A stretch of DNA of 54,812 nucleotides, taken from assembly GCA_002700365.1 (NCBI GenBank), contig PADB01000006.1, forward strand, positions 1 to 54,812. The letters run 5' to 3'. The translations under genes and the position numbers were made by a program. The stretch is from Kordiimonas sp. Its GTDB lineage: Bacteria > Pseudomonadota > Alphaproteobacteria > Sphingomonadales > Emcibacteraceae. Each line of letters opens with the position of its first letter. Within the stretch, counting starts at the first letter, position 1. Shown one piece after another: positions 33,683 to 48,426 of the stretch. A model generated the notes under the pieces. It searched no databases and was not told the origin of the DNA. It saw only the letters and a list, made by a program, of their open reading frames with translations.

Positions 33683-34606
33683 TTATGTGACAACTGGCAG
33701 GAATGTGTCGTTCAGCTTCTTCTCATAATAGAAGATCGCCTTACCGACGTTATCAAAATCCCACGTGCGCTGCGGCAGGTCAGGATAATAATGATAGCCG
33801 CCCGCAAACACTTCATTACGGTTCCCGGATGGATCCCAGAAATAAATTGTCCGGCCCCGTGTGATACCATGGCGTGTCGGCCCAATATCCACAGGAATAT
33901 CAAACCGCGTCATAATATCCGCAGCGTGGCCAACCGCATTCCAGTCTTCCAGCAAGAAGGAACAATGGTGCAGCTTACCCGGCTCTTCATGTTCTGCAAA
34001 TGCGACATCATGCGCCTTGTTGGAAATACTCAGGAAAATAACCAGTGGCTTACCTTCCGGATCATTCTGGACTTCAGCAAGCTCGAAATCGAACACTTCG
34101 TTCAGAATTTTGAAGTTTTCCATCACATTCACGCCATAAAGCAATGCGTGATCAAAACGGATAACACCACAGGCACGAGGCATGTCTTTGAAAACGTCCG
34201 GATTTTCAGTCATCGGACCATTGTCGGACAGTTCCATATCTGCATAGAAATCGAACAAATGACCAGAAGGCAGATGTACGCGCAAACGGCGACCCACGCC
34301 TGGCTGCTCACCAGCTTCGACCCATTCCGTTTTGCAATCGTAATTTTTCAACTTTTCTGCACTTTCGTCCAGGTAAGCATCGCTTGAGACCTTAAAGCCC
34401 ATTACGTCCATACCCGGCACATCTGTTTCACGCAGAATAATGCTATGTCTGTGGAACTCGTCATAAGCCTTCAGATAAACACGACCGTCTTCACCCGTAC
34501 CCACGACATCCAAACCCAGAATATCACGGTAATGCCACAGGGCTTTTTCCATTTCCATTACACGGATCTGCATAAAACCCGGACGCAACACTCCATTAAT
34601 CGCCAT
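33683..34606 (-). CDS. xylE: Catechol 2,3-dioxygenase (XylE/DmpB type)
   Basis: A 307-residue extradiol dioxygenase. Key residues fall at the same numbers as in XylE of Pseudomonas putida mt-2: Fe ligands His153 (FDHALLYG), His214 (LHHCSFLLE) and Glu265 (NRNEVFAGG), and active-site His199, His246 and Tyr255. It opens catechol to 2-hydroxymuconic semialdehyde, the substrate of the XylG-type enzyme at 23253. Ribosome site GGAGG. It is the second gene after the flavin/2Fe-2S reductase (36-base gap). Confidence 0.96.
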   Translation of the reverse strand: MAINGVLRPGFMQIRVMEMEKALWHYRDILGLDVVGTGEDGRVYLKAYDEFHRHSIILRETDVPGMDVMGFKVSSDAYLDESAEKLKNYDCKTEWVEAGEQPGVGRRLRVHLPSGHLFDFYADMELSDNGPMTENPDVFKDMPRACGVIRFDHALLYGVNVMENFKILNEVFDFELAEVQNDPEGKPLVIFLSISNKAHDVAFAEHEEPGKLHHCSFLLEDWNAVGHAADIMTRFDIPVDIGPTRHGITRGRTIYFWDPSGNRNEVFAGGYHYYPDLPQRTWDFDNVGKAIFYYEKKLNDTFLPVVT

Positions 34607-34642: not shown

Positions 34643-35605
34643 TTATATATCGAGCACAAGCTCGGTCCCTGGTGCCCCGCGAGAGACACATGGGGCAATG
34701 ATCTTGCCCTCTTTTTTTTCACCATCACTCAGGCAAAGATCATTATGCTGGATCTCACCGGAAATCACATTCAGCAGACAGCTTCCACAAAAACCTTCTG
34801 CACATGACAGTGCCACTTTATAACCATTTTCACGTAACGCGTCAGACAGCTTTTCGTCTGGCCCTACGGAGAAGGTCTTACCACTCTTCGCCATTGTAAC
34901 CGTAAACTCACCACCCGTCGCTTCTTCAGGGTGATGTACACCAGAAGCCGAGAAATACTCTTTACGTACCAATTTACTTGGCCAATGTTCTGTTGCTTTT
35001 TCAATGGCATCCATAAAACCACCAGGGCCACACATATAAAGCTGTGCGTCAGCTGGCACATCTTTAAAAGCCGCACCAAAATCCATCAACTGCTCTTTCG
35101 GGCCTGTGTCCAGATGAATCGACACTTTATCCGCAAATGGCTTTTCCAGAATAATTTCTTGAAAAGCCGCGCGCTCTGCGTCCCGGGCACAATAATGCAA
35201 TTCAAATGATTTGCCTTTGGCATGCAATTCTTCCGCCATCGCCAGAACAGGGGTAATACCAATGCCACCGCCCATCAGGATATAATGGCCATAACCTTCT
35301 TCTAGTTCGAAGTGGTTGCGCGGTTCGGAAATCATGACTTCATCGTCAACTTGTATGTTATCACAAATTGCGATCGATCCTCCGCGGCCTTCAGCTTCAC
35401 GCTGTACCCCGATCTGATACTGCCCATTGGGCGCGTAATAGTTATAAAGTGAATACTGGCGGATCAGGTCGTCGCCCACATGCACATCAATATGTGCACC
35501 TGCAGTGAACGCCGGGAACGCTTCCCCTTCGACCGGCTCCAACCCAAATGAAAAAATGCCTTCTGACAGTTTATTTTTTGATTTTACGACAGCACGAATA
35601 GTCAT
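34643..35605 (-). CDS. Phthalate-dioxygenase-reductase-type flavoprotein with C-terminal 2Fe-2S domain
   Basis: A 320-residue reductase: N-terminal flavin domain (RQYSLYN, residue about 48), NAD(P)H domain (GGGIGITPVLAMAEEL, then MCGPGGFMDAIE) and a C-terminal plant-type 2Fe-2S ferredoxin domain (CAEGFCGSC and a later Cys in NDLCLS). It moves electrons from NAD(P)H to a partner oxygenase or reductase. No oxygenase alpha subunit is present. Partners could be the catechol dioxygenase downstream (reactivation, as XylT does for XylE), the Rieske protein at 45833, or the RdhA-like proteins. The fused reductase of the dehalogenase NpRdhA is of this same type. Confidence 0.9.
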   Translation of the reverse strand: MTIRAVVKSKNKLSEGIFSFGLEPVEGEAFPAFTAGAHIDVHVGDDLIRQYSLYNYYAPNGQYQIGVQREAEGRGGSIAICDNIQVDDEVMISEPRNHFELEEGYGHYILMGGGIGITPVLAMAEELHAKGKSFELHYCARDAERAAFQEIILEKPFADKVSIHLDTGPKEQLMDFGAAFKDVPADAQLYMCGPGGFMDAIEKATEHWPSKLVRKEYFSASGVHHPEEATGGEFTVTMAKSGKTFSVGPDEKLSDALRENGYKVALSCAEGFCGSCLLNVISGEIQHNDLCLSDGEKKEGKIIAPCVSRGAPGTELVLDI

Positions 35606-35795: not shown

Positions 35796-38147
35796 TTAAA
35801 AGTCCATACGGGCCTGTAAAAAGACCTGACGTCCCGGGCCTTTTGCCTGTACGTATACAGGGTTTGCCGGGTCTGCAGGGAAGCCGGCATCAGTACCATA
35901 GCTGATAATATCTTCATCTGTCAGGTTTTTAACCTGCAAAGATAATTCCCAGCCATTGTCTAAGGATGAAAGCCCCACACGCGCATCAAACTTCCAGTAA
36001 GAATCAATACGCAAGAAAGGATCACGATCCAGATCAGGGTCAAAGCTATCTGTATACTGTGCATCCAGACGCAAACTAACCTCGTAACCGTTGGCGACCG
36101 GATAATCCACCTGTCCAAACATATTCGCCGTGATTTTTGACGCATAAGGCAATGGTTGTCCGCGCAGATTCTGTGTATCGCCCGGTGCTTCACAAACACC
36201 ATTGTTATCCACCTGCAATATTTGTGGACATTCGACACCCGGGAAATCGCCATATTCTGTGTCCAGATAGGCAAAGTTTCCACCGACCAATAGATATTCG
36301 TTCACCTGGAACTGGGTTTCAATTTCTAACCCGTCCATGCTGTGCGATGGAATATTCTTCACTTCAAAACCAACCAATGGGGCATTAAAGGCCACATATT
36401 GCAGGTTTTTGTAATCTGTGTGAAAAACCGTCAGGTTGAAGATTGCCCGACCATCCAGCAGCTTCGCCTTCATACCCAGTTCAAAGTTCTCTGCTTCTTC
36501 GTCTTCATATTCCAAAGACGCTGCAGTTTTCGCAACTGGTGCCGCATAAACTGGAAAGAAGTCGAAACCGCCTGTTTTTGATGCCTGTGTCCATGTAGCA
36601 AACAACATCACATCATCTGTAAGGTCGTATTGCAGGTTAATCGTCGGATCAAAGCTTTTATCCGAACGTGTCTCATCAATAGGGTTAAACACGGTCAGTG
36701 TCGTAATATCCGTTTGGGCGTCCACGGCCAATGCACCGCCGCCAACTGTGTTACGAATATCTGCAACATAATCTTTTGTTTCATCATTGTAACGGCCGGA
36801 CAGTGCCAGACGTAAATCGTCAGAAACATTCCACACCAATTGACCAAATACAGACCACATTTCTGTATCCTGATCGATACGCCAGCGTGTCGCGTACCCT
36901 AATGTCGGCGGGGCCTGCACAATATTAAGGGCATTATCCAAAGCCTGTTCCTGCTTCAAATAATAAAGGCCAACAATATATTCAAAAGTTTCACCCACAG
37001 GTGATTCCAAACGGATTTCCTGACTGAACTGTTTGAAGTTACCTTCGGACGTCCATGTCTCCAGACCGATGCCGCTGAAATCCGCCGGGGCCTGGTCGGC
37101 CTCATCAAACTCCGCATAGCCAGACACCATCTTCAAGGCATGTTCGCCAAGGGTATAATCAATAGCCAGCATCGCGTTCAATGTTTCCGTATCAGAAAAA
37201 TCCTGATCCGGGAAAACGCCTGCCAATGGACCTGCAACAGCACCACTGGTTACTGTTTCATCCAACGCACACTCAACGGTACCGAATGCACCAAGTCCCG
37301 GACCCGCTGTAGGGAATGAATATGTCGGGGCACCATTTCCGCAAACGAGCTGACGGTCAGACCCTTCTACCTTGCGCTCCGCATATTCGATTTTGAGATC
37401 TGCAGACAGGTTATCTGTCAGATTAAAAATAAAATAACCGCGCCCCACTTTTGAATCGACTTCCGGCTCGTCTTCACCCGTTACAGGGTTGTCAAGATAG
37501 CCGCCTTCACGCACAACACGACCGGCAATCCGCGCCAGAATTTTATCTGTTAGCGCGCCAGAGACGGCCGCCTCCAGGTTATAGCCATCATATTCGAATT
37601 CATAACCACCGGAAACATAGCCTTCTAGCTCCTCGCTAGGCTTACGTGATGTAATGCTAATTGCACCTGCGGTCGCATTTTTACCAAACATGGCAGATTG
37701 CGGTCCGCGAATGACCTCGATGCGTTCCATGTCAAAAAACGGTGCCAAAAACTGCTTTGCGCGTCCGCTATAGACGCCATCAATAAACATGCTAACGGAC
37801 TCTTCAAAGCCCTTATTGCCGCCTGATGCACCAAGACCCCGGATCTTAATAATCGGCTGAAATGGGGATGCTGCAACCTGCATGTTCGGGATCATGCCGC
37901 TTATGTCTTTTAATTCGAAGACATTGTTTTTTACGGCAAAATTGCCGTCAATCGCGGCAATAGAAATCGGCACATCCTGAATGCTTTGCGCCCGTTTCTG
38001 GGCTGTAACTGTGATCTCTTCAATTTGAAAAGTTTCCGCCTGCGCCGCTGGGGTCAGGGCGATAACAGCACTCGTCAATAGAAGAGAGAATTTAAATGAT
38101 GATGAACGTATACGCCATACGTTCCTCCCTTGGAAATACACACTCAT
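35796..38147 (-). CDS. TonB-dependent outer-membrane receptor
   Basis: A 783-residue receptor: a cleavable signal peptide (hydrophobic stretch then AQA, about residue 37), the TonB-box-like EEITVTAQKRAQS, a plug domain (about residues 55-165, with IRGLGASGGNKGF and the IEVIRGPQSAMFGKNATAGAI motif) and a beta-barrel ending in Phe. This is the type common in sphingomonads and marine alphaproteobacteria for aromatic compounds, sugars or siderophores. Lying between the catechol/reductase operon and the RdhA-like genes, it may import the aromatic substrate or cobalamin. No cobalamin riboswitch is seen upstream, so the aromatic is favoured (inference). Confidence 0.92.
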   Translation of the reverse strand: MSVYFQGRNVWRIRSSSFKFSLLLTSAVIALTPAAQAETFQIEEITVTAQKRAQSIQDVPISIAAIDGNFAVKNNVFELKDISGMIPNMQVAASPFQPIIKIRGLGASGGNKGFEESVSMFIDGVYSGRAKQFLAPFFDMERIEVIRGPQSAMFGKNATAGAISITSRKPSEELEGYVSGGYEFEYDGYNLEAAVSGALTDKILARIAGRVVREGGYLDNPVTGEDEPEVDSKVGRGYFIFNLTDNLSADLKIEYAERKVEGSDRQLVCGNGAPTYSFPTAGPGLGAFGTVECALDETVTSGAVAGPLAGVFPDQDFSDTETLNAMLAIDYTLGEHALKMVSGYAEFDEADQAPADFSGIGLETWTSEGNFKQFSQEIRLESPVGETFEYIVGLYYLKQEQALDNALNIVQAPPTLGYATRWRIDQDTEMWSVFGQLVWNVSDDLRLALSGRYNDETKDYVADIRNTVGGGALAVDAQTDITTLTVFNPIDETRSDKSFDPTINLQYDLTDDVMLFATWTQASKTGGFDFFPVYAAPVAKTAASLEYEDEEAENFELGMKAKLLDGRAIFNLTVFHTDYKNLQYVAFNAPLVGFEVKNIPSHSMDGLEIETQFQVNEYLLVGGNFAYLDTEYGDFPGVECPQILQVDNNGVCEAPGDTQNLRGQPLPYASKITANMFGQVDYPVANGYEVSLRLDAQYTDSFDPDLDRDPFLRIDSYWKFDARVGLSSLDNGWELSLQVKNLTDEDIISYGTDAGFPADPANPVYVQAKGPGRQVFLQARMDF

Positions 38148-38453
38148 TTTACTGAGGAAGGCCCGTCTTTCCGTCCGCCCACAGGCATCCGGAGAGATAA
38201 TAATTAAGACTTCCCTCGGTAGCGTATACTGTCGATATCGGGAGGGATTTTCTATGTCCTAAATCACAAGTTTATTGTCTAATGACACTATACGAACATA
38301 AATTCGCAAAATGCATTTCATGCAACACGTAGATATATTCAAATATTAGGTTATTTTAATTATAGGGTATATGTGGAGACTAAGAAAGCCGCAATCCTGA
38401 CGATACAAAGACTGCGGCTTTCTTACGATATTAACATGGTCGCGTGACCCGAA
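38148..38453 (-). promoter_or_regulatory. Leader of the TonB receptor gene, with a terminator inside
   Basis: No gene is seen. It should hold the receptor promoter, but no clear boxes stand out. I looked for the conserved cobalamin riboswitch box (GCCACTG) on the minus strand and did not find it. The distal part carries the terminator of the first RdhA-like gene. Confidence 0.4.
38382..38424 (-). terminator. Terminator of RdhA-like gene 1
   Basis: The arms AAGAAAGCCGCA and TGCGGCTTTCTT are perfect complements around a 19-base loop, 30 bases past the stop. Confidence 0.75.
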
Positions 38454-39482
38454 TTACATAGTATTTTCTGCCTTACGCGCCATTTTCTTCAGCATCTTTT
38501 TCGACAGCGATGTGGCGACGCCAGGACGGCTCCATGGGCAAGTCGACAGGCAGATACCACACGCTTTGTGTTCCGTAATGAACGGCATGCATTTATCAAA
38601 GTCCACGTACCATTTTTCAACACCACGCACCATCTGCTTTTTGTCACTAATAGCACCAGGCGGACAATCTTCGGTGCATTTCTTACAGGACATGCAAAAT
38701 TCATCCACACCGATTTCCCGCGGCTGATCCTCTATCAACGGCATATCTGTCATAACCGTTGCAATACGAAAGGCACTCCCAAGTTCATCGCTAATCATGG
38801 AGCCATTCTTCGCTAGCTGACCAATCCCTGCCTCAATTGCTGGCGGGATCATCAAATGCAACTCCCCCTCATTAAGGGTCAATCCACCATAACCGGTAGC
38901 CGGCCAACCCTGCGCCCGTATCCAATTGGCCAGGTCCACAGCCGCACGTTGGGTTTTTTCATAACCACCGATCACCTGCGTAATCGCTGACGAAAAATCA
39001 CCCCCCAAATTCTTCGCCAGCAAGTCATAATCCATAGAACGCGCCAAAACGACGACATATTTGGCGGATAAGTTTTCCTGATTTTCAAACATCCAGTCTT
39101 TACGCATCCGCGTCACACCCACAACCTCGACCTCCTCATGGGCTAAGGCCTTTTTCTTTAAAGCAGCTGTAAATTCTTCCGGTGTTTTTTCAATGCGCAC
39201 ATCTGCTATTTTTTTATGGCCGATTTTGTCGCGGATCGCATGGGTAAAAAAAGAAATCGCCGCCGATAAACTCCCCATATAGGAGCGAAATAAAAACATG
39301 TAGACAATTGACATCCACGGGTGTTTTTCCGTGCCGTGCATCTGCGGCCATGCACGATAAACGTCTTTTCGCCCCAGCCCATTAAACGTATTTCCCGACA
39401 CACCTTCCGGAATACACCATTTCGTCAATACGGAAGGCTCATATTCATGATGCCTTACCTGTTTACCTACAAAGAAACCCAT
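38454..39482 (-). CDS. RdhA-like cobalamin/4Fe-4S protein, paralogue 1 (stand-alone reductive dehalogenase core)
   Basis: A 342-residue protein, one of five tandem paralogues. The C-terminal half carries two ferredoxin-type clusters: FCMSCKKCTEDCPPGAIS (CX2CX2CX3CP) and a second Cys set, CX9CX2CX3CP, ending CLSTCPWSRPG. Before them is a region like the RdhA core (GIGQLAKNG, then MTDMPL...IGVDEFC). RdhA enzymes bind cobalamin and remove halogen reductively. There is no Tat signal or membrane anchor, so it is cytosolic, unlike respiratory RdhA. The start at 39482 is chosen for AGGAAG 7 bases upstream and because all paralogues begin MGF(F/W). QueG (epoxyqueuosine reductase) is a related family but less similar. 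The substrate is unknown. Confidence 0.75.
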   Translation of the reverse strand: MGFFVGKQVRHHEYEPSVLTKWCIPEGVSGNTFNGLGRKDVYRAWPQMHGTEKHPWMSIVYMFLFRSYMGSLSAAISFFTHAIRDKIGHKKIADVRIEKTPEEFTAALKKKALAHEEVEVVGVTRMRKDWMFENQENLSAKYVVVLARSMDYDLLAKNLGGDFSSAITQVIGGYEKTQRAAVDLANWIRAQGWPATGYGGLTLNEGELHLMIPPAIEAGIGQLAKNGSMISDELGSAFRIATVMTDMPLIEDQPREIGVDEFCMSCKKCTEDCPPGAISDKKQMVRGVEKWYVDFDKCMPFITEHKACGICLSTCPWSRPGVATSLSKKMLKKMARKAENTM

Positions 39483-39726
39483 GTCCACACTTCCTGAATA
39501 AAATTAAAATTATTCATTCCATAATACACAATAAGAACATTTGTTCAATTATAGCTATCACTTGATAAGTGTCCCACAGACCACTCTAACACATAAAAAA
39601 ATTGTACTTTTATGGGTCATACATGAAATGATGATGATAGACGCGTTGCCACTACATCAAAAAGCACTGGCCATCACAACGAAGAGGCGCCACCTTGTCA
39701 TCACCACGGTTATGCCCTAAATAAAA

Positions 39727-39750
39727 AAGCGGTGGCTATCACCACCGCTT
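39727..39750 (-). terminator. Terminator of RdhA-like gene 2
   Basis: A perfect 9-base stem AAGCGGTGG/CCACCGCTT with a T run on the minus strand, 24 bases past the stop codon of the gene ending at 39775. Confidence 0.88.
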
Positions 39751-39774
39751 CTTGCAATTGACACATATTTACGC

Positions 39775-40809
39775 CTAGGACGCCAATTCCGTTTCTTGTC
39801 GCCGCGCCATTTTCTTTAACATTTTTTGTGATAAAGAAGGCGCAACACCCGGGCGGCTCCAGGGGCATGTGGACAGGCAAATGCCACAGGCATTATGTTC
39901 AGTAACAAAGGGCATACATTTATCAAAGTCCACGTACCATTTTTCAACACCACGCACCATTTGCTTTTTGTCACTGATCGCACCGGGCGGGCAGTCTTCT
40001 GTGCATTTCTTACAGGACATGCAAAATTCATCCACACCAATTTCGCGTGGTTTATCCTCAACCAGTGGCATATCTGTTAAGACAGAAGCAATACGAAACG
40101 CACTGCCCAATTTATCGCTAATCATCGAACCATTCTTGGCCAGTTGACCAATGCCACTTGCAATAGCAGGTGGCATTGACAGAAACCATTCACCTTCAGT
40201 CGTAGAAAGTCCCCCATATCCCTTTGCTGGCCAGCCTTGAGAGCGGATCCAGTTCGCTACATGCACCGCCCCGCGCTGGGTCAATTCGTACCCCCCAATG
40301 ACCTGCGTAATCGCCGAAGAAAAGTCTCCCTTAAGGTTCCTCGCTAGGCTATCATAATCCATGGAACGGCCGACCGTGATCACCCATTTATATTGGGACG
40401 AATCGTGTCCTTCAAAACGATATTCATCTTTCATCCGCGTAATCCCCACCACTTCCACTTCGGGGTGGGCCAACGCAATTTTCTTAACCTCCGCAGTAAA
40501 TTCTTCCGGACTTTTACGCACAACCTCATCCGCGACGGGTACATGACCGGTCACCTCACGCCATTTATGCTTGACTGCAGAAATAACCGTATTGAAATTC
40601 CCCCCCATCGTCCGAAAGAAAAATAGGGCGGTCACCTTGAACCATGGGTGCGGTGTTGGGCTATGAAATTGTGGCAAGGCCCGATAGACATCCTTACGCC
40701 CTAACCCATTATAGTCATTCCCGGACCCATTTTTTGGCATCAACCATTTCGTCAATGTCGCTGGCTCATAAACGTGTTTTGCGGTGTTTTCACCCTGCCA
40801 AAAACCCAT
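39775..40809 (-). CDS. RdhA-like cobalamin/4Fe-4S protein, paralogue 2
   Basis: 344 residues, same architecture as paralogue 1: N-terminal MGFWQG, HPEVEVVGITRMK, GRSMDYD, GYGGLS, GIGQLAKNGSMISD, then FCMSCKKCTEDCPPGAISDK and CGICLSTCPWSRPG. The Fe-S half is nearly identical to paralogue 1, even at DNA level, while the N-terminal half is more divergent. The start at 40809 has AGGGAGA upstream; a longer in-frame start at 40857 has none. It has its own terminator, so each copy appears to be a separate transcription unit. Confidence 0.75.
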   Translation of the reverse strand: MGFWQGENTAKHVYEPATLTKWLMPKNGSGNDYNGLGRKDVYRALPQFHSPTPHPWFKVTALFFFRTMGGNFNTVISAVKHKWREVTGHVPVADEVVRKSPEEFTAEVKKIALAHPEVEVVGITRMKDEYRFEGHDSSQYKWVITVGRSMDYDSLARNLKGDFSSAITQVIGGYELTQRGAVHVANWIRSQGWPAKGYGGLSTTEGEWFLSMPPAIASGIGQLAKNGSMISDKLGSAFRIASVLTDMPLVEDKPREIGVDEFCMSCKKCTEDCPPGAISDKKQMVRGVEKWYVDFDKCMPFVTEHNACGICLSTCPWSRPGVAPSLSQKMLKKMARRQETELAS

Positions 40810-40974
40810 TTTATTCTCCCTGAATTTTAGCTCTGGCTTTAAAGTAAAAGAACCCACGCATCTGTGTCATTGGCCATAAGGATAAAAAGAATGTCGCTGC
40901 GTTTAATATCAACCACGACATTTTTTCTTGATGATCTGACCACGCCTAACGGAAAAACCTCACATACGACACGC

Positions 40975-42006
40975 TCAAGAAATGTTTTCTGCACGCCGTG
41001 ACATTTTCTTTAACATTTTTTGAGAGAGAGACGGGGCTATACCCGGACGGCTCCAGGGGCAGGTCGATAAACAAATAGCACAGCCTTTATGCTCTGCCAT
41101 GTAAGGCATGCATTTATCAAAATCCACATACCATTTTTCAACACCGCGAACCATTTGCTTTTCATTACTGATCGCACCTGGCGGACAGTCTGTCTGGCAC
41201 TTCTGACAGGACATACAAAATTCGTCCACACCCATTTCCCGCGGCGCATCCGCCAACAGCGGCATATCCGTCAGAACGGTTGCAACGCGAAACGCACTGC
41301 CCAAACTATCATTAATCATCGAACCATTCTTTGCCAATTGGCCGATACCCGCCTCTATCGCCGGCGGAATTGCCAAATGCCATTCGCCCTTCGTGGACGA
41401 TAACCCGCCATATCCTTTGGCATAGTATCCTCTCTCGCGTATCCAATTGGCAATGTGAACCGCGCCACTTTGCGTCTTTTCATAGCCACCGATCACCTGC
41501 GCCAGTGCAGAACTAAAATCTCCCTGCATATTTTTCGCCAGTGCCTCATAATCCATGGACCGGCCCGTCACAACAATCCACGGCAAATCCGCAATATCGT
41601 CATGCCCCTGAAATCGCCATTCTTCGCGCATACGGGCAATACCCACGATCTCTACTTCCGCATGCTTTAATGCTTCTTCCTTTAGGGCGGCCGTAAAAGA
41701 TTCCGGTGTGCCCTGTTGCCGTTGTGCGGCGATGTCAATATGACCGAATTTTTCCCGCCACATATGTTTTATGGACGCCACCGCCGACACCGGGCTGCCG
41801 ATGGTGGTGCGAAATAAAAACATCGCCACTACTTTTGTCCATGGATGTTTTTCCGGGCCATGCATTTGCGGGCGGGCCCGGGATACTTTTGTATCACCCA
41901 AACCGTTATAGGTATTTCCTGATGCCCCTTTGGGGATAAGCCACGATGTCAGAACAGACGGCTTATATCTGTTTGGCCCTAATTCTTTACCGACAAAAAA
42001 ACCCAT
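40975..42006 (-). CDS. RdhA-like cobalamin/4Fe-4S protein, paralogue 3
   Basis: 343 residues with the shared blocks GLGDTKVSRARPQMHGP, HAEVEIVGIARMR, GRSMDYEALAKN, GYGGLSSTKGEWH and GIGQLAKNGSMIND. Its first cluster motif is a variant, FCMSCQKCQTDCPPGAISNE, shared with paralogue 4, and the second reads CAICLSTCPWSRPG. The start at 42006 has GGAG 9 bases upstream; longer in-frame starts upstream (42018, 42153) have no ribosome site. No strong terminator is seen on its downstream side. Confidence 0.74.
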   Translation of the reverse strand: MGFFVGKELGPNRYKPSVLTSWLIPKGASGNTYNGLGDTKVSRARPQMHGPEKHPWTKVVAMFLFRTTIGSPVSAVASIKHMWREKFGHIDIAAQRQQGTPESFTAALKEEALKHAEVEIVGIARMREEWRFQGHDDIADLPWIVVTGRSMDYEALAKNMQGDFSSALAQVIGGYEKTQSGAVHIANWIRERGYYAKGYGGLSSTKGEWHLAIPPAIEAGIGQLAKNGSMINDSLGSAFRVATVLTDMPLLADAPREMGVDEFCMSCQKCQTDCPPGAISNEKQMVRGVEKWYVDFDKCMPYMAEHKGCAICLSTCPWSRPGIAPSLSQKMLKKMSRRAENIS

Positions 42007-42180
42007 ATTCTGCTCCATGTCATATCGCATACACTCTACGGTAGTAATTTCTTTAATTACTCTTACCCGTAAAGTTCTGTTGTGGTTTCGGCATTTTGCC
42101 AGCGGTTTTAAAATAACGATATTATACAGTAATGAAGCAGGAAATTCTTCCAATGCTGCCTTTATTTTTGCAGCCTCAAT

Positions 42181-42208
42181 AAAAAAGGCGGGAAAACCCG
42201 CCTTTTTT
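42181..42208 (-). terminator. Terminator of RdhA-like gene 4
   Basis: A perfect 12-base stem AAAAAAGGCGGG/CCCGCCTTTTTT with an AAAA loop, 38 bases past the stop of the gene ending at 42247. Confidence 0.92.
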
Positions 42209-42246
42209 ATCTATCACCATACTCTAGCTAGAGAAGATGTCGTTTT

Positions 42247-43278
42247 CTATGACGCGACCATCTCCTCTTGGCGGGCCATTTTCCTCAGCATTTTTTGTGA
42301 AAGTGATTTTGCAATGCCTGGACGGCTCCACGGGCACGTCGACAGGCAGATACCACAGGCTTTATGTTCTGTGACGTAAGGCATACATTTATCAAAATCC
42401 ACATACCACTTCACGACACCGCGGACCAAAGTCTTTTCATTGCTAATCGCGCCGGGAGGACAATCAGTCTGACATTTCTTGCAGGACATGCAAAATTCAT
42501 CCACACCAATTTCGCGCGGCGCATCCGCCACCAATGGCATATCCGTCAGCATTGTCGAAATACGGAAGGCACTTCCCAGTTCATCGCTAATGATAGAACC
42601 GTTTTTCGCCAACTGCCCGATCCCTGCTTCCAATGCCGGAGGGATCATCGCATGCAGTTCCCCTTTGGTCGTCGTCAGGCCGCCATAGCCGCGCGCAGGC
42701 CAACCCTGAGAACGCACCCAGTTCGCCAGGTCCACGGCCGCACGCTGTGTCTTTTCGTATCCGCCGATCACCTGCGTGATCGCGGATGAAAAGTCATGGT
42801 TCAAATTTTTAGCAAGATTTTCATAATCCATAGAGCGGCCAATAACCACAATCCATTTGTAGTCAATATCTTCCTGGCCCGCGAACATCCATTCTTTACG
42901 CATCCGGGTAATACCAACAACCTCTGCTTCCGGATGAGCCAGTGCTCTTCTCTTCACTTCTGCGGTAAATTCCTCTGGTGACTTCTCAACTCTCACTGGC
43001 GCGATTTCAACGCTGCCATAACGGTCACGCCACTGGTGCACAATAAATGACACCAACGCAGAAAAACTCCCCAAATAGGCCCGGATCAGAAATAAAATCA
43101 CCAATGATTGCCAGGGGTGATCTTCTGGACCATGCATTTGTGGCAACGCGCGATATTCATCTTTGCGTCCCACGCCATTAAATACATTGCCTGATGTGCC
43201 CTTTGGAATAAGCCAACGTGTCAGCGTACCCGCCTTATACTCATTCGGCCCAATTTGCTCACCTGTAAAAAAACCCAT
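42247..43278 (-). CDS. RdhA-like cobalamin/4Fe-4S protein, paralogue 4
   Basis: 343 residues. The blocks HPEAEVVGITRMRKEWMFAG, GRSMDYENLAKN, GYGGLTTTKGELH and ISDELGSAFR are closest to paralogue 1, while the first cluster motif (FCMSCKKCQTDCPPGAISNE) matches paralogue 3, a mosaic pattern. The second cluster reads CGICLSTCPWSRPG. Ribosome site AGGAAAG precedes the ATG at 43278. It has its own strong terminator. Confidence 0.75.
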   Translation of the reverse strand: MGFFTGEQIGPNEYKAGTLTRWLIPKGTSGNVFNGVGRKDEYRALPQMHGPEDHPWQSLVILFLIRAYLGSFSALVSFIVHQWRDRYGSVEIAPVRVEKSPEEFTAEVKRRALAHPEAEVVGITRMRKEWMFAGQEDIDYKWIVVIGRSMDYENLAKNLNHDFSSAITQVIGGYEKTQRAAVDLANWVRSQGWPARGYGGLTTTKGELHAMIPPALEAGIGQLAKNGSIISDELGSAFRISTMLTDMPLVADAPREIGVDEFCMSCKKCQTDCPPGAISNEKTLVRGVVKWYVDFDKCMPYVTEHKACGICLSTCPWSRPGIAKSLSQKMLRKMARQEEMVAS

Positions 43279-43456
43279 TATTCTTTCCTGTCTAGTATAC
43301 CGTCATAATTTTTCAGGGGGCATAGTACCAAAAATACACCAACCCTTATTATCCGATAAGCTACTTTTTTTGTCCGAGTTCTGAGTTACGCATATCCTAC
43401 ATCTGCTAACATCAGACTACGTCTATTTCTGCCCCGCTTTCTTAAAGAATAATGAC

Positions 43457-44488
43457 CTAAGAAGCCATTTGTTCTTTCTGGCGAGCCATTTTCTTCAGCA
43501 TTTTTTGTGATAAAGAAGGCGCAATGCCCGGACGGCTCCACGGACACGTTGACAAACAAATCGCACAGCCTTCATGCTCCGTGATAAACGGCAAACATTT
43601 GTCATAATTTACGTACCACCGTTCCACGCCCCTCACCATTTGCTTTTTATCGCTAATCGCTCCAGGCGGACAATCTTCCGTACATTTTTTACATGACATA
43701 CAAAACTCATCCACACCGATATTGCGTGGTTCATCAGCAACAAGTGGCATATCCGTTACCACGGTGGATAAACGGAAATTACCCCCCACAACATCACTAA
43801 TCATCGAACCATTTTTGGCTAATTGACCAATACCACTATCTATCGCCGGCGGAATTGCCAGATGAAATTCATTTTCAATAAAGGACGCTCCACCATACGC
43901 CTTCGCATAATAGCCCCGGCGACGGATCCAGTTTGCAACCACCATGGCCCCATGCTGCGTACGTTCGTAGCCGCCAATAACCTGCTTAATGGTCGCGGAA
44001 AAGTTCCCTTCCAGATTTTTAGCTAATTCATCATAATCCATCGACAATGCGACAACAACGACCCACGGGCTCGTAATGCCGTCTTGACCTGCGAACATAT
44101 AGTCTGATTTCATTCTCGTAATGCCGATCATTTCGACATATTCACTTTTCAGCACGTCGCGCTTCATATCACGGGAAAAGCTTTCCGCTGTACCTTCTGC
44201 TTTTTGTTCGGCAATCTTCACATGCAGAAATGTTTCTCTGAATTTATGTTTCATGATAGAAACAATCGTACCTGGCCGCCCAAACACGGCGCGCATGCCA
44301 AACAAATTAGCTACCTTTTTCCACGGGTGCCAATTCGGTCCATGGAAATGTGACGGTGGACGATAAACATCCTCACGCCCTAATCCATTAAAATCATTAC
44401 CGGAAACATCCTTTGGCATAAGCCATTTTGTGAATGTTGCTGGCTCATATTGATGTTTACCTACGACTTTACCGACCCAAAAACCCAT
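43457..44488 (-). CDS. RdhA-like cobalamin/4Fe-4S protein, paralogue 5 (most divergent)
   Basis: 343 residues, the most divergent of the five: SEYVEMIGITRMKSDYMFAG, ALSMDYDELAKN (Ala-Leu in place of Gly-Arg), GGASFIENEFH in place of GYGGL..., GIGQLAKNGSMISDVVGGNF, then FCMSCKKCTEDCPPGAISDK and CAICLSTCPWSRPG. All eight cluster Cys are conserved, so cofactor binding is kept, while the predicted substrate region differs, suggesting another substrate. The start at 44488 has AAGGACA upstream; an in-frame start at 44545 lacks one. Confidence 0.74.
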   Translation of the reverse strand: MGFWVGKVVGKHQYEPATFTKWLMPKDVSGNDFNGLGREDVYRPPSHFHGPNWHPWKKVANLFGMRAVFGRPGTIVSIMKHKFRETFLHVKIAEQKAEGTAESFSRDMKRDVLKSEYVEMIGITRMKSDYMFAGQDGITSPWVVVVALSMDYDELAKNLEGNFSATIKQVIGGYERTQHGAMVVANWIRRRGYYAKAYGGASFIENEFHLAIPPAIDSGIGQLAKNGSMISDVVGGNFRLSTVVTDMPLVADEPRNIGVDEFCMSCKKCTEDCPPGAISDKKQMVRGVERWYVNYDKCLPFITEHEGCAICLSTCPWSRPGIAPSLSQKMLKKMARQKEQMAS

Positions 44489-44601
44489 TTTCTTGTCCTT
44501 ATAAATTTTGTGCCACTTCATAAGATTATTGATTCTTGATAGCATACTTTTATACCATTGTATAATTTTATATGCCTGTATAATTGTTTTTGCATCTGCA
44601 A

Positions 44602-44629
44602 AAAAGCCCGCTGTTTCCAGCAGGCTTTT
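44602..44629 (-). terminator. Terminator of the AraC regulator gene
   Basis: The arms AAAAGCCCGCTG and CAGCAGGCTTTT form a 12-base stem (with one G-U pair in the minus-strand RNA) and a 4-base loop. It lies 30 bases past the regulator stop. Confidence 0.8.
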
Positions 44630-44658
44630 GATGAGTATTCCTTTAACAATAAGGAAGG

Positions 44659-45645
44659 TTATTCTGGATTATCCCGGGATATGAAACCGGCATTAAAGTC
44701 ATTAATATCCCCGCGGCGGATTAATTCCCGGTAACGTCCCGGCGTGTGCCCGACCCGGCGACTAAAGGCTTTATTGAAAGCTGATTCAGATTGATAACCG
44801 ATTAGCCCGGCAATCTGGTTAATAGCCAATGTACTCCCCCGTAGCAAAGAGGCTGCACGTTGCATCCGAATACGGCTTAAATAATTGAGGGGCGTGTCCC
44901 CCACCATTTGCTTGAAACGTTCACTTAACCCTGAACGGCTCATGTTCGCGAGTTCTGAAAGCTGGTCTAATGTCCAGTCTTTACCATAATCACCATGCAA
45001 CGCTGACAAAACGCGGCGAATACGATCGTCATAACACCCCGACTGCCCAAGCAATTGCGGTGCTTCTTTCTTATTCAGCCCGTAAATACTAATTAAAACA
45101 CACACAGCTTCGATTAAACGGCGTTTAAGCACCGTGCCTTTATCCTGGGTCCGGACATCCCCGCGCATAAACAACGATAATAACGACCACAAACCCGGAA
45201 TATCATCACGGTCTTCCGGCCGCACGACAAAAATAGGCGGAATAATATCCGGCACCAGATTGCTGGTTTCCCGGACTGTCATGACAAAGAAAAGTGGCGT
45301 TTCCGCATTCTCATCACCAATAAAGAAATCCTGGCGATCATGATCGTCTATGGGCAAAAATTCTGCCTTATGGGTACCTGCTTTTTTTTCTCCCGGCGCA
45401 TATTGTGACCATAAATGGCTTGATGGCCGGGTCAGGGCTACAGCCGTGCCCGGTTTTATTTCCCACGGCGGGTCATCCTGACAATGCAACCACGCCTTGC
45501 CTTCCAATAATATATATAAAGGAATGATATCCCCCGTCGTTACCTCGTATGACCATGGTTTTTCCATGCGCATAAGATAACAACTAATTGAATCCACCCG
45601 AATATCAGGTGTGAACAACAAATCCTGCACCAATACGGCCTCCAC
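44659..45645 (-). CDS. AraC-family transcriptional regulator (cupin_6 type)
   Basis: A 328-residue regulator with an N-terminal AraC_binding/cupin_6 domain (residues about 15-215) and a C-terminal double helix-turn-helix (about residues 225-315) ending IAGLIGYQSESAFNKAFSRRVGHTPGRYR. The N-terminus is uncertain: the frame opens at GTG 45645, but GTG 45630 has a better-placed GGAGG. It is on the same strand as, and between, the RdhA-like genes and the Rieske/hydroxyquinol operon, and could regulate either. The ligand is unknown. Confidence 0.85.
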   Translation of the reverse strand: MEAVLVQDLLFTPDIRVDSISCYLMRMEKPWSYEVTTGDIIPLYILLEGKAWLHCQDDPPWEIKPGTAVALTRPSSHLWSQYAPGEKKAGTHKAEFLPIDDHDRQDFFIGDENAETPLFFVMTVRETSNLVPDIIPPIFVVRPEDRDDIPGLWSLLSLFMRGDVRTQDKGTVLKRRLIEAVCVLISIYGLNKKEAPQLLGQSGCYDDRIRRVLSALHGDYGKDWTLDQLSELANMSRSGLSERFKQMVGDTPLNYLSRIRMQRAASLLRGSTLAINQIAGLIGYQSESAFNKAFSRRVGHTPGRYRELIRRGDINDFNAGFISRDNPE

Positions 45646-45832
45646 ACTCCCAAATTACTACCGCAGGCATCTGGTACGCCTCCCCCGTATGCCGCCATTA
45701 TTTTATTTATATTGATATGGCCGCGTGACACTATAACAGGACTTATTATCAGATAGCAATCAAGGCTAAGTGGAAAAACATATAGACCTATTTATCCGCA
45801 TCACAAATCAAAACAATTGCGCAGATAAAACA

Positions 45833-46273
45833 TCAGTCTCCTATTGCGACACCATCCCCCTTTGTGATCAGGGGAATTTTAATCAGCAAATCTTTTTCCG
45901 GAGGCCCTTCTATACAAAGCCCTGTATCAACCTCAAATAAAGCCATGTGATGTGCACATTTCAAATGCTGTTTGTTCACACATAGGAATTTTTCAGGCAC
46001 CGCCGGGCTGTTCAACGGGATTTGGAAATGGGGACAAACATTCACATAGCCGTAAAACATGTCACCTTTACGCGCGACAATCATTGAAAAAGCTTTATTT
46101 TCCGGCCCAAACCGAAACTCTTTTACGCCAGGGTCTTCAATATCTGATTGATTGCATAACACATGCCCGGGTTTTGGTGCATGTGCAAATGTTTGCCATT
46201 GGCCAGTTAAATAATTACCCATCAATGTTCCATAATAACCGGACCCCACTGGCCCATTAAAAAAATGGCCCAT
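45833..46273 (-). CDS. Rieske 2Fe-2S ferredoxin-like protein
   Basis: A 146-residue single-domain protein with a Rieske motif: CPH (VCPHFQIPLN) followed by CAHH (LKCAHHMALFEVDTG), the C-x-H...C-x2-H pattern that binds a 2Fe-2S cluster with two Cys and two His. It has no catalytic domain, so it is an electron carrier, such as the ferredoxin of a ring-hydroxylating system. Its 5' end overlaps a terminator-like hairpin (46266-46298), so the true start may be the internal ATG at 46222 (129 residues, GGAA upstream). It follows the hydroxyquinol dioxygenase gene by 54 bases. Its partner is unknown. Confidence 0.8.
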   Translation of the reverse strand: MGHFFNGPVGSGYYGTLMGNYLTGQWQTFAHAPKPGHVLCNQSDIEDPGVKEFRFGPENKAFSMIVARKGDMFYGYVNVCPHFQIPLNSPAVPEKFLCVNKQHLKCAHHMALFEVDTGLCIEGPPEKDLLIKIPLITKGDGVAIGD

Positions 46274-46327: not shown

Positions 46328-47191
46328 CTAGGAACCTGGATTTAGTACGAAATCGTAAGTCGCATATCTAAATGGACTTTCGACACCGTATTTCTGCGCC
46401 GCTTCTTCATCAGAAGAGGTCGGGAAATCAATAATCAATGATTCTTTCACACCGAATACGGCATCTGAATCCAGATACTCGCCGCCTTCGGGGAAAATAT
46501 GTGTGGTCACAGGCTCATACCCTTCGGCCTGCACAATGAAATGCACATGCGCCGGGCGATAAGGATGGCGACCCAATTGCGTCAACATTGCCCCTACCGG
46601 ACCATCTGTCGGGATCGGGTAAGCACAAGGCATACTTGTCACGAACCAATATTCGCCATTTTCGTTTGTCTGCAGCCGAACGCGCAGGTCAAAGCCTTCA
46701 TCAGGCTTTTGCACATCATAAAACCCTTCTGTGTCAGATTGCCAAACATCCAACAGGGCATTGGCAATAGGATTACCATCCAGATCCGTCACACGCCCGG
46801 ACATCACACACGGTTCGTCCACCGCTTCATTATAAATTTTGCTCCCCAGCGGCACTTCCGGCGCGCCTTCTACAAAGAACGGCCCCAATACCGTGGATTC
46901 TGTGGCCCCACCGGGTTTTCTGTTATTGATGGCATCCACCAACATTGAAACGCCCAATGTATCGGATAACAAAATCCACTCTTGTCTTTTGTCATCACAC
47001 ATTTGTCCTGTCGCCGTCAGGAATTGAATAGCTGCCATCCACTCATCCATTGTCGGCTCGACTTCTTTGACCACAGCGTGCAAATGCTTAATCACGCTGG
47101 TCATTACTTCTTTCAAACGTTCATTCTTGGCATCGTCCATCCGCGCTAAAACTGTTTCCGCCGATTTCTCTTCGCTAAAACCTCTATCCAT
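46328..47191 (-). CDS. chqB: Hydroxyquinol 1,2-dioxygenase (intradiol, ChqB/DxnF type)
   Basis: A 287-residue Fe(III) intradiol dioxygenase with an N-terminal helical dimerisation domain and a beta-sandwich catalytic domain. Fe ligands are visible: Tyr in SDTEGFYDV, Tyr in HPYRPAHVHF and His x2 in AHVHF. ESTVLGPFFVEGAPE is typical of hydroxyquinol/chlorocatechol dioxygenases. It converts benzene-1,2,4-triol to maleylacetate, the substrate of the maleylacetate reductase encoded nearby. The start at 47191 has AGGAG 8 bases upstream and is preferred over 47221. Confidence 0.88.
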   Translation of the reverse strand: MDRGFSEEKSAETVLARMDDAKNERLKEVMTSVIKHLHAVVKEVEPTMDEWMAAIQFLTATGQMCDDKRQEWILLSDTLGVSMLVDAINNRKPGGATESTVLGPFFVEGAPEVPLGSKIYNEAVDEPCVMSGRVTDLDGNPIANALLDVWQSDTEGFYDVQKPDEGFDLRVRLQTNENGEYWFVTSMPCAYPIPTDGPVGAMLTQLGRHPYRPAHVHFIVQAEGYEPVTTHIFPEGGEYLDSDAVFGVKESLIIDFPTSSDEEAAQKYGVESPFRYATYDFVLNPGS

Positions 47192-47217
47192 TTTCCGTAA
47201 CTCCTGACTTATGATTA

Positions 47218-48426
47218 TCAAATACGTTCAAAGGCAACCGAAACCCCTTGCCCCACGCCAATACACATCGTTGCAACCCCCAACGATAACGACTGTTGCT
47301 GTAATTCTTCAACCAATGTCATCGCCAGACGCGCGCCTGACATGCCCAAAGGATGGCCCAAGGCAATTGCCCCGCCGTTCGGATTTACATGGTCCGCATC
47401 ATCCGCCAGACCTAACTGACGCATCACCCCAAGTCCTTGCGCGGCAAAAGCTTCGTTTAATTCGACCAGATCCACATCGCCGATGGTCTTGCCCATTTTC
47501 GCCAACAGCTTTTCCGTTGCTGGCGCAGGGCCAATTCCCATGACCCGCGGGGGCACCCCCGCGGTCGCACTGGCCACCACGCGGGCACGCGGCACCAGGT
47601 TATATTTTTTGACGGCGGCCTCACTGGCAATAATCATTGCCGCCGCCCCGTCATTTACGCCGGATGCATTCCCGGCTGTTACTGTCCCGTCAGCAACCAC
47701 AACAGGGTTTAAAGACTGTAACTTTTCATAGGTTGTCTCTGCACGCGGGTGTTCATCAACGGCAACTTCCGTCACTGCCCCTTTACGCCCCGGCACCATG
47801 ACGGGCACAATTTCTGTGGCAAACCGCCCTGATTGCTGCGCTTTGGCCGCACGCTGCTGTGACCGCAAGGCAAAAGCATCCTGATCATCACGAGAAATAT
47901 TGTAATCCGCTGCAACATTTTCCGCTGTTTCCGGCATGCTGTCCACGCCATAGGCCGCTTTCATTTGCTTATTTACAAACCGCCAGCCAATAGTCGTATC
48001 ATACACTGCATTGGCACGGGTAAAGGCCTTTTCCGCCTTTGGCATCACAAACGGCGCGCGCGACATACTTTCCACACCACCGACAATAAGCAAATCCGCC
48101 TCGCCCGATTTAATCAGACTACTTCCCAAACGCACTGCATCCAGCCCAGACCCGCAAAGACGATTGACTGTCGTCCCGGTGACCACATCGGGCAGTCCCG
48201 CGAGCAGCGATGACATACGTGCCACATTGCGATTGTCTTCACCCGCCTGATTGGCGCAGCCAAAAATAACATCTTCAACAGCCGCAAAATCCACATCAGG
48301 ATTGCGCTCCATCAGGGCTTTCAGCACCACTGCCCCCAAATCATCCGGCCGCACTGTAGAAAGTCCACCGCCATAACGGCCTATTGGAGTACGAATGGCA
48401 TCACAAAGAAATGCTTGTGTCATCAT
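47218..48426 (-). CDS. pcaF: 3-oxoadipyl-CoA thiolase (acetyl-CoA acyltransferase)
   Basis: A 402-residue thiolase with the acyl-enzyme Cys in [11 protein letters not shown] (about residue 90), the [20 protein letters not shown] block and the final Cys-containing [12 protein letters not shown]. It splits 3-oxoadipyl-CoA to succinyl-CoA and acetyl-CoA, the last step of both the hydroxyquinol and hydroquinone branches. Six bases separate it from the maleylacetate reductase gene. Confidence 0.92.

Follow-up and report, generated by a model that had tools for sequence, protein, structure and literature searches.

The respiratory reductive dehalogenase PceA of Sulfurospirillum multivorans (PDB 4UQU), with the active-site residues Tyr246 and Arg305, is exported through the Tat pathway. 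Among the catabolic enzymes, BhbA of Comamonas sp. 7D-2 (WP_015585978) is one 1071-aa polypeptide with a C-terminal reductase, while NpRdhA of Nitratireductor pacificus (PDB 4RAS, 6ZXU, 6ZY1) is described among the naturally truncated catabolic RdhAs, with about 700 residues, a duplicated cobalamin-type domain and an Arg552 named among the residues for substrate binding and catalysis (PMC10463259). NpRdhA is reported to be inactivated by changing its equivalent of PceA Tyr246 (PMC5500849). A short enzyme lacking a Tat signal, Ros_A3X954 of the marine heterotroph Roseobacter sp. MED193, turns 2,6-dibromophenol into 2-bromophenol according to the published account (PMC13101508). On the panel used in that work, one of eight uncharacterised reductive dehalogenases was active and activity was lost under oxygen (PMC13101508), so homology is no promise of activity, and function in an aerobe is not assured. 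The epoxyqueuosine reductase QueG, as described, is related through a corrinoid/[4Fe-4S] core fold with one common Tyr, and has the motif DYH at the active-site Tyr (PMC4646009).

Tandem array of short RdhA-like genes

The window analysed here is a 54,812-nt stretch of Kordiimonas sp. (Emcibacteraceae; assembly GCA_002700365.1, contig PADB01000006.1). At 38454-44488 it carries five intact ORFs in tandem on the minus strand, free of internal stops and encoding proteins of 342-344 aa: 38454..39482 (342 aa, MGFF start), 39775..40809 (344 aa), 40975..42006, 42247..43278 and 43457..44488 (343 aa each). Starts were set at the common MGF; a mechanical ORF caller runs further upstream in four of the five, and its start for the first copy is a GTG at 39488. 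The copies are separated by spacers of 165-292 nt, one of which holds a terminator-like hairpin, and share 56-72% identity with the copy at 42247.

Two cluster motifs, CX2CX2CX3CP (C263-C273) and CX9CX2CX3CP (C298-C315), are invariant in all five copies, as the original prediction, made from the sequence of the locus, had described along with the gene number and protein lengths. The conserved run it had named holds for GIGQLAKNG, TDMPL and GVDEFC (5/5); the I placed before GVDEFC is found in four copies and replaced by M in one. Its further points, that Tat signal, membrane anchor and nearby rdhB-like gene are all missing, fared almost as well. None of the five proteins has an RR within its first 60 residues, and no RdhB-like ORF is present in 38100-45700, where hydrophobic stretches mark only three ORFs of 40-130 aa: one inside copy 2 in a different frame, another between copy 5 and the AraC gene on the opposite strand, and a third spanning the start of the AraC gene. 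The array lacks the Tat signal and RdhB anchor that mark respiratory RdhAs, PceA being Tat-exported. As to an anchor, the copy at 42247-43278 is borderline, since its residues 57-87 form a hydrophobic stretch with a 19-residue Kyte-Doolittle score of 1.95; the remaining 12 paralogues of the genome stay below 1.6 on this scale, so the claim is a fair one for most copies.

Family placement and predicted fold

The best NCBIfam match of all five proteins is RDH (TIGR02486), at 1e-34 to 3e-33 and 116-121 bits (120.6, 118.9, 118.4, 116.3 and 116.1 bits in order of position), each below the curated cut-off of 160.35 bits, and no PF13486 match is listed for any of them at E up to 10. A sequence search of the PDB returned tetrachloroethene reductive dehalogenases (1e-26, 3e-25), NpRdhA (8e-24) and QueG (5e-7). 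In a tree of 81 rows, the short family, by which we mean the array proteins and their relatives of similar length, forms a clade (95/97; 60 rows, including the long-branched L115) beside an RdhA clade of 16 rows (93/90), and the array proteins do not fall inside the respiratory/catabolic RdhA clade. Catabolic enzymes were represented by BhbA-type rows and this genome's own 751-aa RdhA, which form a clade separate from the short family; NpRdhA is absent from this sample, and the deep order of short family, known reductive dehalogenases and QueG is not settled by the tree (58/1). RdhA-family membership as originally proposed is borne out by fold, catalytic pair and cluster motifs, but not by the curated cut-off, which is missed, nor by the tree, in which the short family has its own clade beside the sampled RdhAs.

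The fold was compared through an AlphaFold model of the copy at 42247-43278 (pLDDT 94), with no corrinoid placed. The model matches NpRdhA with a VIA Z of 27.9 over 292 residues, spanning residues 39-337, and PceA with a Z of about 26; QueG follows at 14.6 over 197 residues spanning 100-323 only, and MMACHC and CblD are distant fold matches (Z 6-7). On this comparison of one modelled copy, the array proteins are predicted to have the RdhA-type corrinoid-binding fold.

Conservation was read from 104 rows, namely 13 paralogues of this genome (see below) and 91 relative rows that include five genes entered twice. Tyr174, Arg239 and all eight cluster Cys are invariant in 13/13 paralogues, the first array copy among them, and in 91/91 relative rows, and the two motifs lie 45 residues apart, start to start, in every row. 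Counted in the PDB-search alignments, Tyr174 and Arg239 correspond to Tyr246 and Arg305 of PceA and to Tyr426 and Lys488 of NpRdhA. Across 22 comparison rows, position 239 is R or K in all 19 non-QueG rows and F, F and Y in the three QueG rows; the Tyr174 column holds Tyr in 18 of the 19, the exception being a Dehalococcoides row (L111) that is left unaligned there. NpRdhA Arg552 has no counterpart: its column holds M, L, I or V in 13/13 paralogues and Phe in 91/91 relatives. Positions 226 and 302 carry residues changed in the expanded clade.

Likeness to NpRdhA thus extends to the fold of the catalytic half, both clusters, the Tyr, a basic residue at its Lys488 and the absence of a Tat signal, whereas a length half that of NpRdhA with no duplicated cobalamin-type domain, the lost Arg552 and the overall sequence (identity about 22%) set the two apart. 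The same chemistry as in BhbA would be expected of the array proteins, yet here the cores are multiple and bare, the 13 paralogues having 26-34 residues past the last Cys and no fused C-terminal reductase. The original prediction, which had both known catabolic enzymes fused to a reductase, was right about BhbA and wrong about NpRdhA, and a bare core outside the Tat pathway is not without precedent, given Ros_A3X954. That protein, compared by its published description only, differs in having its cluster motifs 54 residues apart (283, 337), as against 45 in the short family, and in matching PF13486 by the paper's account (PMC13101508). A spacing of 54 also occurs in 397-423-aa proteins of Emcibacteraceae relatives (L116, L122) and in a Sulfurospirillum row (L107), so that spacing alone cannot identify the Ros_A3X954 type.

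QueG identity was considered and rejected. The five reach 42-48 bits with QueG (7e-13 to 4e-11; 46.3, 43.8, 44.8 and 42.4 bits for copies 1, 2, 3 and 5) against a TIGR00276 cut-off of 200, and all are nearer to RDH; DYH stands at the active-site Tyr in 0/13 paralogues and 0/91 relatives; and the short tails leave out the C-terminal HEAT-repeat domain of QueG, three QueG rows having 122-131 residues past the last Cys. A true QueG is encoded separately in the genome (454 bits).

Expansion in one genome and relatives elsewhere

The five-copy set originally described is an undercount, as eight further full-length paralogues lie elsewhere in the 2.40-Mb genome. The resulting 13, of about 340-350 aa and 44-72% identical to one of them, form a single clade (support 100/96) and are under purifying selection (median dN/dS 0.16 for the 33 of 78 pairs that were computable). 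Five more copies make up a second tandem set 1.9 kb from meta-cleavage lower-pathway genes, and two copies lie near an HsaA-type monooxygenase gene; ring-cleavage gene sets are close to both the window array and that on contig 3. The genome also holds a truncated copy, 0.6 kb distant from the gene of a VanA-type oxygenase. No upstream element common to all 13 paralogues was found.

At least 495 short-family relatives were found, the 13 keeping to their own clade among them, in at least five phyla and mostly as single copies. Every other genome surveyed has at most five copies, a part of the survey having scored at most five candidates per genome. Genes within 160 nt of relatives are mixed (80 loci): MFS transporters at 8, carboxymuconolactone-decarboxylase-like genes at 5, AMP ligases at 5, Rieske oxygenases at 3 (VanA type, L078; LigXa type, L084; Rieske domain only, L027) and UbiD at 2. 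The closest outside relatives of the 13 adjoin other genes. Since most relatives are single-copy in mixed neighbourhoods, the ancestral substrate need not have been a halophenol. Our literature search found no study of this branch.

Neighbouring genes and corrinoid supply

Profile matches in the window bear out the original observation that the array adjoins genes for hydroquinone, catechol and phenol catabolism; all window features named below lie on the minus strand except the sigma-54 activator. Directly upstream of the array is an AraC-family regulator (44659..45645; HTH_18 75.2 bits, Cupin_6 37.9), which by its position may control it. Then follow a small Rieske-domain protein of 146 aa, possibly an electron carrier (45833..46273; Rieske 31.1 bits, cut-off 20.3), an intradiol dioxygenase of catechol or hydroxyquinol 1,2-dioxygenase type (46328..47221; Dioxygenase_C 130.1, Dioxygenase_N 116.1 bits; below all equivalog cut-offs) and the 3-oxoadipyl-CoA thiolase PcaF (47218..48426; TIGR02430 666.1 bits, cut-off 597). 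An iron-type alcohol dehydrogenase family protein (48433..49497; ADH_Fe_C 139.2, Fe-ADH 99 bits) is, from context, probably a maleylacetate reductase, and two CoA-transferase subunits (49497-50318 and 50270-51160; CoA_trans 151.6 and 79.2 bits) may form a 3-oxoadipate CoA-transferase. The aldehyde dehydrogenase at 51115..52632 (Aldedh 592.1 bits; no equivalog cut-off reached among the matches listed) probably acts on hydroxymuconic semialdehyde, again from context. The large subunit of a hydroquinone 1,2-dioxygenase (52674-53738; PnpCD_PnpD_N 182.7 bits) is accompanied by its presumed small subunit, assigned by position in place of a profile match (53698-54204).

Directly downstream lies a TonB-dependent outer-membrane receptor (35796..38147; TonB_dep_Rec 144.3 bits, Plug 49.5), and beyond it a stand-alone reductase of the phthalate-dioxygenase-reductase (PDR/VanB) type (34643..35605; PDB 2pia 217 bits), a candidate electron donor 2.8 kb from the array. 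It is the genome's sole full-length match and is 36% identical to BhbA's C-terminal reductase. At 43% identity to generic PDR/VanB, it is nearer to the ordinary type, which counts against a donor role; six Rieske-domain frames (353-472 aa) in the genome are possible users of it. A catechol 2,3-dioxygenase (33683..34606; TIGR03211 378.5 bits, above the cut-off of 320.2), a sigma-54 activator of the phenol-sensing XylR/DmpR/MobR type on the plus strand (31878..33611; XylR_N 113.5, V4R 49.5; MobR 501 bits, cut-off 999) and a BphC-type extradiol dioxygenase (30639..31562; BphC_D1 53.9, Glyoxalase 73.9; TIGR03213 265 bits, cut-off 366) complete this flank. The genome has no CbiC match and has a B12 riboswitch preceding a BtuB-like receptor gene; it probably imports its corrinoid.

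Proposed function and alternatives

We favour, with a probability of roughly 0.6, the reading that the array belongs to a 13-member, lineage-specific expansion within a branch of cytoplasmic, single-domain reductive dehalogenases that depend on cobalamin and act on halogenated aromatics. Each protein would hold one base-off corrinoid in an RdhA-type, nitroreductase-like pocket together with two [4Fe-4S] clusters, the corrinoid being supplied probably by import. A cellular reductase, perhaps that at 34643-35605, would pass electrons through the clusters to yield Co(I), which would remove halide from the substrate as Tyr174, next to Arg239, donates a proton. Halogenated phenols, hydroquinones or catechols would be the likely substrates, the copies may divide these among themselves as one system serving several halogenated phenols, and the products could enter the adjoining hydroquinone and catechol ring-cleavage pathways and support growth.

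The strongest competitor, to which we assign a clearly smaller but real share, takes these proteins for RdhA-fold B12/[4Fe-4S] reductases that act on aromatics or natural products but remove another group, for example hydroxyl, methoxyl, sulfate or an epoxide oxygen; reducing aromatics in general would then be the role of the family at large, with the 13 copies as variants for different substrates. The wide, mostly single-copy distribution, the Rieske oxygenase genes at 3 of 80 loci, the truncated copy near a VanA-type gene and the altered positions 226 and 302 all suit it. Against this stand the Tyr/Arg pair of PceA and NpRdhA, both proven dehalogenases, and a fold match spanning the whole catalytic core, and O-demethylase neighbours are equally compatible with halogenated methoxy-aromatics.

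Less probable again is detoxification in place of growth, in which halogens would be stripped from toxic bromophenols or similar compounds and the products not fed into the adjoining pathway. Given the spacers, the hairpin and the lack of a common upstream element, the copies may be controlled individually, and the closest outside relatives sit beside other genes; both the window array and that on contig 3 lie near ring-cleavage gene sets, which argues the other way. A non-catalytic role in corrinoid storage, trafficking or sensing, to which the distant MMACHC and CblD matches and probable B12 import might point, is improbable, because eight cluster Cys and a Tyr/Arg pair invariant in 104/104 rows are needless for a carrier, and the 13 copies are divergent, under purifying selection and mostly in arrays near catabolic genes. 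That these are multiplied epoxyqueuosine reductases of QueG type, or further relatives involved in tRNA modification, is hardly credible, the weak QueG similarity being outweighed by the separate QueG, the missing DYH and HEAT domain, the F or Y in place of R at 239 and the lower Z (14.6 vs 27.9).

We consider it an even call whether the short family makes up a separate lineage of B12 reductive dehalogenases, outside the respiratory, catabolic and transmembrane groups. Such a lineage would consist of cytoplasmic single-domain proteins of about 330 aa that escape the curated models and occur across at least five bacterial phyla, in soil and marine bacteria that are for the most part aerobic, and one 2.4 Mb Emcibacteraceae genome would hold 13 functional copies with diverged substrates. 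In that case the 13-copy set would be an aerobic degrader's counterpart of the large RdhA sets in obligate organohalide respirers. Should short-family members dehalogenate, ordinary soil and marine bacteria would hold a large capacity that goes uncounted because these proteins score below the threshold used to name reductive dehalogenases, and degradation of natural bromophenols and chloro-aromatics would be tied to B12 supply, since the genome probably imports its corrinoid. The 13 small cores offer a handy set of natural variants in which to trace substrate choice, and they may express more easily than membrane-bound respiratory enzymes. Besides these short copies, the genome encodes the 751-aa RdhA included in the tree, which is of catabolic type.

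Family membership and fold

The five tandem RdhA-like genes on the minus strand of the window (38454-44488) stand as observed: they are real and intact, and neither of the cluster motifs, nor any of the sequence strings listed in the original prediction, is missing from any of the five proteins. In an NCBIfam profile search, the reductive dehalogenase profile RDH (TIGR02486) was the top match for every one of them (E 1e-34 to 3e-33), with epoxyqueuosine reductase (QueG) far behind, so that a firm placement of all five in QueG, the outcome set beforehand as counting against the idea, was not the case. The curated score does not admit the proteins to the named RDH family: they reach 116-121 bits against a cut-off of 160.35, and a Pfam profile search listed no PF13486 match for any of the five. 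A PDB sequence search found tetrachloroethene reductive dehalogenases (RDases) and the catabolic NpRdhA to be closest, followed by QueG. An AlphaFold model of the copy at 42247-43278 (62 aligned sequences, pLDDT 94, pTM 0.92) can be superposed on NpRdhA along residues 39-337 (Z 27.9, 292 residues, 2.9 A) and on the respiratory PceA with a Z of about 26, and on QueG only along residues 100-323 (Z 14.6, 197 residues). Foldseek E-values give the same family order, at 1e-13 or better for RDases and from 2e-7 for QueG.

Residue counting in the printed PDB-search alignments places positions 174, 239 and 302 opposite Tyr426, Lys488 and Arg552 of NpRdhA (the last at or adjoining 302), and opposite Tyr246, Arg305 and Trp376 of PceA. 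Tyr174 and Arg239 are invariant in the 13 paralogues of this genome and in all 91 rows of relatives. According to PMC5500849, changing the Tyr246 equivalent inactivates NpRdhA, and in PceA a ring of Arg305, Trp376, Asn272 and Phe38 surrounds the substrate; the key NpRdhA residues are named in PMC10463259. Because QueG carries the tyrosine as well, as stated in PMC4646009, this residue alone does not decide between RDase and QueG. Position 239, however, is Phe, Phe and Tyr in three QueG rows and Arg or Lys in 19 other comparison rows, and the DYH found at the Tyr position of QueG occurs in none of the 104 short-family rows. Profile scores, residue 239, the missing DYH, the fold match, C-terminal length and the presence of a separate true QueG elsewhere in the genome together exclude the short proteins from QueG. 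Their function is inferred, and we regard dehalogenase-type chemistry as likely (probability roughly 0.65).

Thirteen paralogues in one genome

The window holds five of a larger set, for a whole-genome search found 13 full-length members in the 2,399,875 bases of the genome: besides the window array on contig 11, a second set of five in tandem (178052-184349) and two further paralogues (3655-6211) on contig 3, and one on contig 1 (68216-69250). This 13-fold expansion is the most striking feature of the finding. None of the 13 frames has an internal stop, and dN/dS, computable for 33 of 78 pairs, indicates purifying selection on the paralogues. That the copies arose from an assembly artefact or a mixed genome is unlikely, because the 12-contig assembly is given as 100% complete with 0% contamination, and the paralogues, which share 44-72% identity with the copy at 42247, are spread over three contigs.

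A tree of 81 catalytic cores unites the short proteins in a single clade (95/97; 60 rows, including the long-branched L115), with respiratory and catabolic RdhAs in a neighbouring one (93/90; 16 rows). Five rows, L018, L019, L021, L022 and L023 (the same genes as L040, L094, L067, L042 and L096), and the fragment L014:16399-17094 were left out of the tree; of the 86 relatives that remained, 46 were included. Support of 58/1 fixes no branching order among the short clade, the RdhA clade, QueG and the pair of RDase-like proteins on contig 4. HMM scores agree with the tree in showing the same gap, with 292-577 bits for the short family, at most 173 for other RDase-type rows and 40-48 for QueG. 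Moreover, the starts of the two cluster motifs lie 45 residues apart in all 104 short rows, and 49 and 54 apart in the four other rows measured. Three long open frames (L052, L057 and L079) were considered as fusions and dropped, their N-terminal extensions being without a Pfam match and resembling read-through of other sequence.

The 13 paralogues are a single group (100/96), whose nearest relatives are three sequences from gammaproteobacterial MAGs (100/98) and not the usual Emcibacteraceae gene. Two of the closest outside relatives, both from such MAGs, are L024, which neighbours a second short copy and a DUF1329 gene, and L026, which by eye adjoins a sulfatase-like gene. An order-level survey, with its threshold set to take in the short family only, found it in 27 of 147 genomes, with 13 matches here and one or two in every other. 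A class-level survey scoring at most five candidates per genome found the family in 22 of 385 genomes, with five of the 13 visible here and at most four in any other; eight genomes of the class rescored without the per-genome limit hold at most four copies each. Among 13 genomes chosen for close relatives, the maximum was five copies, in two gammaproteobacterial MAGs. At least 495 relatives occur in the named genome collection, and the best 80 of these loci come from Pseudomonadota, Acidobacteriota, Chloroflexota, Actinomycetota and Gemmatimonadota, among others. The present genome is the sole representative of its genus among the 32 genomes of the family searched.

Expansion seems to have been accompanied by changes in the pocket, as suggested by three features of the aligned sequences. 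Position 302 is Phe in all 91 relative rows and Met, Leu, Ile or Val in the paralogues; position 226 is His in all 91 and Asn in the 13; and a loop near residues 202-209 is three residues longer in the aligned paralogues than in the aligned Emcibacteraceae relatives. Additionally, a helical hairpin (residues 57-87 of the copy at 42247-43278) shows greater hydrophobicity across the 13 copies (Kyte-Doolittle maxima 0.38-1.95) than across 90 relatives (median 0.0, maximum 1.09), and may contact a membrane or a hydrophobic partner.

Four RdhA subfamilies are distinguished in PMC10463259 (respiratory, transmembrane, and two catabolic ones, with and without a reductase), the transmembrane forms also being treated in PMC6797604. 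PMC13101508 describes Ros_A3X954 from Roseobacter, the sole active enzyme of eight uncharacterised RDases tried, which has no Tat signal, acts on 2,6-dibromophenol and is oxygen-sensitive; its motif spacing is 54, in contrast to 45 in the short family. Among the titles listed from the open-access PMC literature (at most 20 per search), none concerned the short family or a 13-copy expansion, and no paper there linked Emcibacter with reductive dehalogenase.

Genomic context

The window array is flanked by an AraC regulator on one side and a TonB-dependent receptor on the other. Beyond the receptor follow, in order, a stand-alone PDR-type reductase (34643-35605), a catechol 2,3-dioxygenase that passes its cut-off, a XylR/DmpR-type activator and a BphC-type dioxygenase. 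The other side carries a small Rieske protein, an intradiol dioxygenase, PcaF and an iron-type dehydrogenase (by context a maleylacetate reductase), then two CoA-transferase subunits, an aldehyde dehydrogenase and a hydroquinone 1,2-dioxygenase; 4-hydroxybenzoate hydroxylase and two FAD aromatic hydroxylases lie farther from the array. Two catabolic genes lie 1.9 kb from the contig 3 array, one of decarboxylase/hydratase type (220 bits, cut-off 351) and one for a 4-hydroxy-2-oxovalerate aldolase (526 bits, cut-off 286), and the contig 3 pair has an HsaA-type monooxygenase one gene away. Among 80 loci of relatives, recurrent neighbours within 160 nt, counted on a mechanical choice of open frames, are MFS transporters (8), carboxymuconolactone-decarboxylase-like proteins (5), AMP ligases (5), Rieske oxygenases (3) and UbiD-type decarboxylases (2). 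All these neighbours fit aromatic breakdown, and none proves a halogen.

Between the contig 3 pair and the monooxygenase gene lies a 251-aa Cys-rich protein (L011:2819-3574), a stretch of which looks QueG/RDase-like by eye; it has no NCBIfam match at 1e-6 and may be a further, very divergent relative. A Rieske oxygenase gene lies 16-123 nt from an intact short member in the relatives L027, L078 and L084, and a VanA-type one (14642-15763) lies 0.6 kb from the truncated member on contig 4; a link to methoxylated halo-aromatics is possible.

Corrinoid, electrons and regulation

Corrinoid is probably imported, because a single cobalamin riboswitch (108 bits) precedes the gene of a BtuB-like receptor (TIGR01779, 308 bits against a cut-off of 600) and the genome has no match to CbiC, the one family on which absence of de novo synthesis was judged; the same search was positive in 7 of 14 control genomes. 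As for electrons, the genome gave one full-length PDR-type match, the reductase of the window. It shares 36% identity with the reductase portion of the catabolic RdhA BhbA, which suggests that reductase and bare cores could be a split version of the self-sufficient enzymes. This reductase is nearer, however, to ordinary PDR/VanB reductases (43%), and the genome's six Rieske-domain frames of oxygenase size could require a donor as well. The reductase is a doubtful electron donor for the short proteins, and its role as a dedicated partner was set aside.

The XylR/DmpR-type regulator had pointed to sigma-54 promoters at the array, but these did not rise above background; a sigma-70 scan found 20 sites (15.8 expected), and no 10-mer is common to more than three of the regions upstream of the 13 genes. 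Terminator-like sites number 20 against 8.4 expected in window 38000-46400, many within genes; the contig 3 array has 8, with 9.2 expected. The gap that separates copy 2 from copy 1 contains a terminator-like hairpin with a T run (39746-39728), so that transcription of the array may proceed as more than one unit. Perfect 6+6 palindromes of any kind occur in 6 of 13 upstream regions where 3.3 are expected, which does not amount to enrichment. ATCA-N2-TGAT occurs in 4 of the 13 (0.06-0.07 expected) and ATAC-N4-GTAT in 3 (0.03 expected), within 90 nt of the starts of seven copies (window 39482 and 44488; L009 10053, 11353 and 15331; L011 4683 and 6211); as both were chosen by eye before the test, they are a lead only for operators.

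Other RDase-like proteins of this genome

Beyond the 13, the whole-genome search returned four more distant matches. One, a catabolic-type RdhA without reductase, lies on contig 5; of the other three, all on contig 4, two are RDase-like proteins and the third is a truncated short-family copy (L014:16399-17094). The first (L013:9267-11522; RDH 202 bits, above cut-off) is NpRdhA-like and has 751 aa, whereas L118, L121, L123 and L124 from other Emcibacteraceae are forms of about 1070 aa that group with BhbA. On contig 4, L014:11580-13835 (751 aa) consists of an RDase-like corrinoid/[4Fe-4S] domain (RDH 68 bits) fused with a reductase domain of the GltD-like FAD/NAD(P) type, a fusion unnamed in the portions of the RDase literature examined. 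Alongside it lie a bare 368-aa paralogue (L014:8951-10057) and, by eye, TetR-type genes, and in both of these RDase-like proteins the catalytic positions are still occupied by Tyr and Arg.
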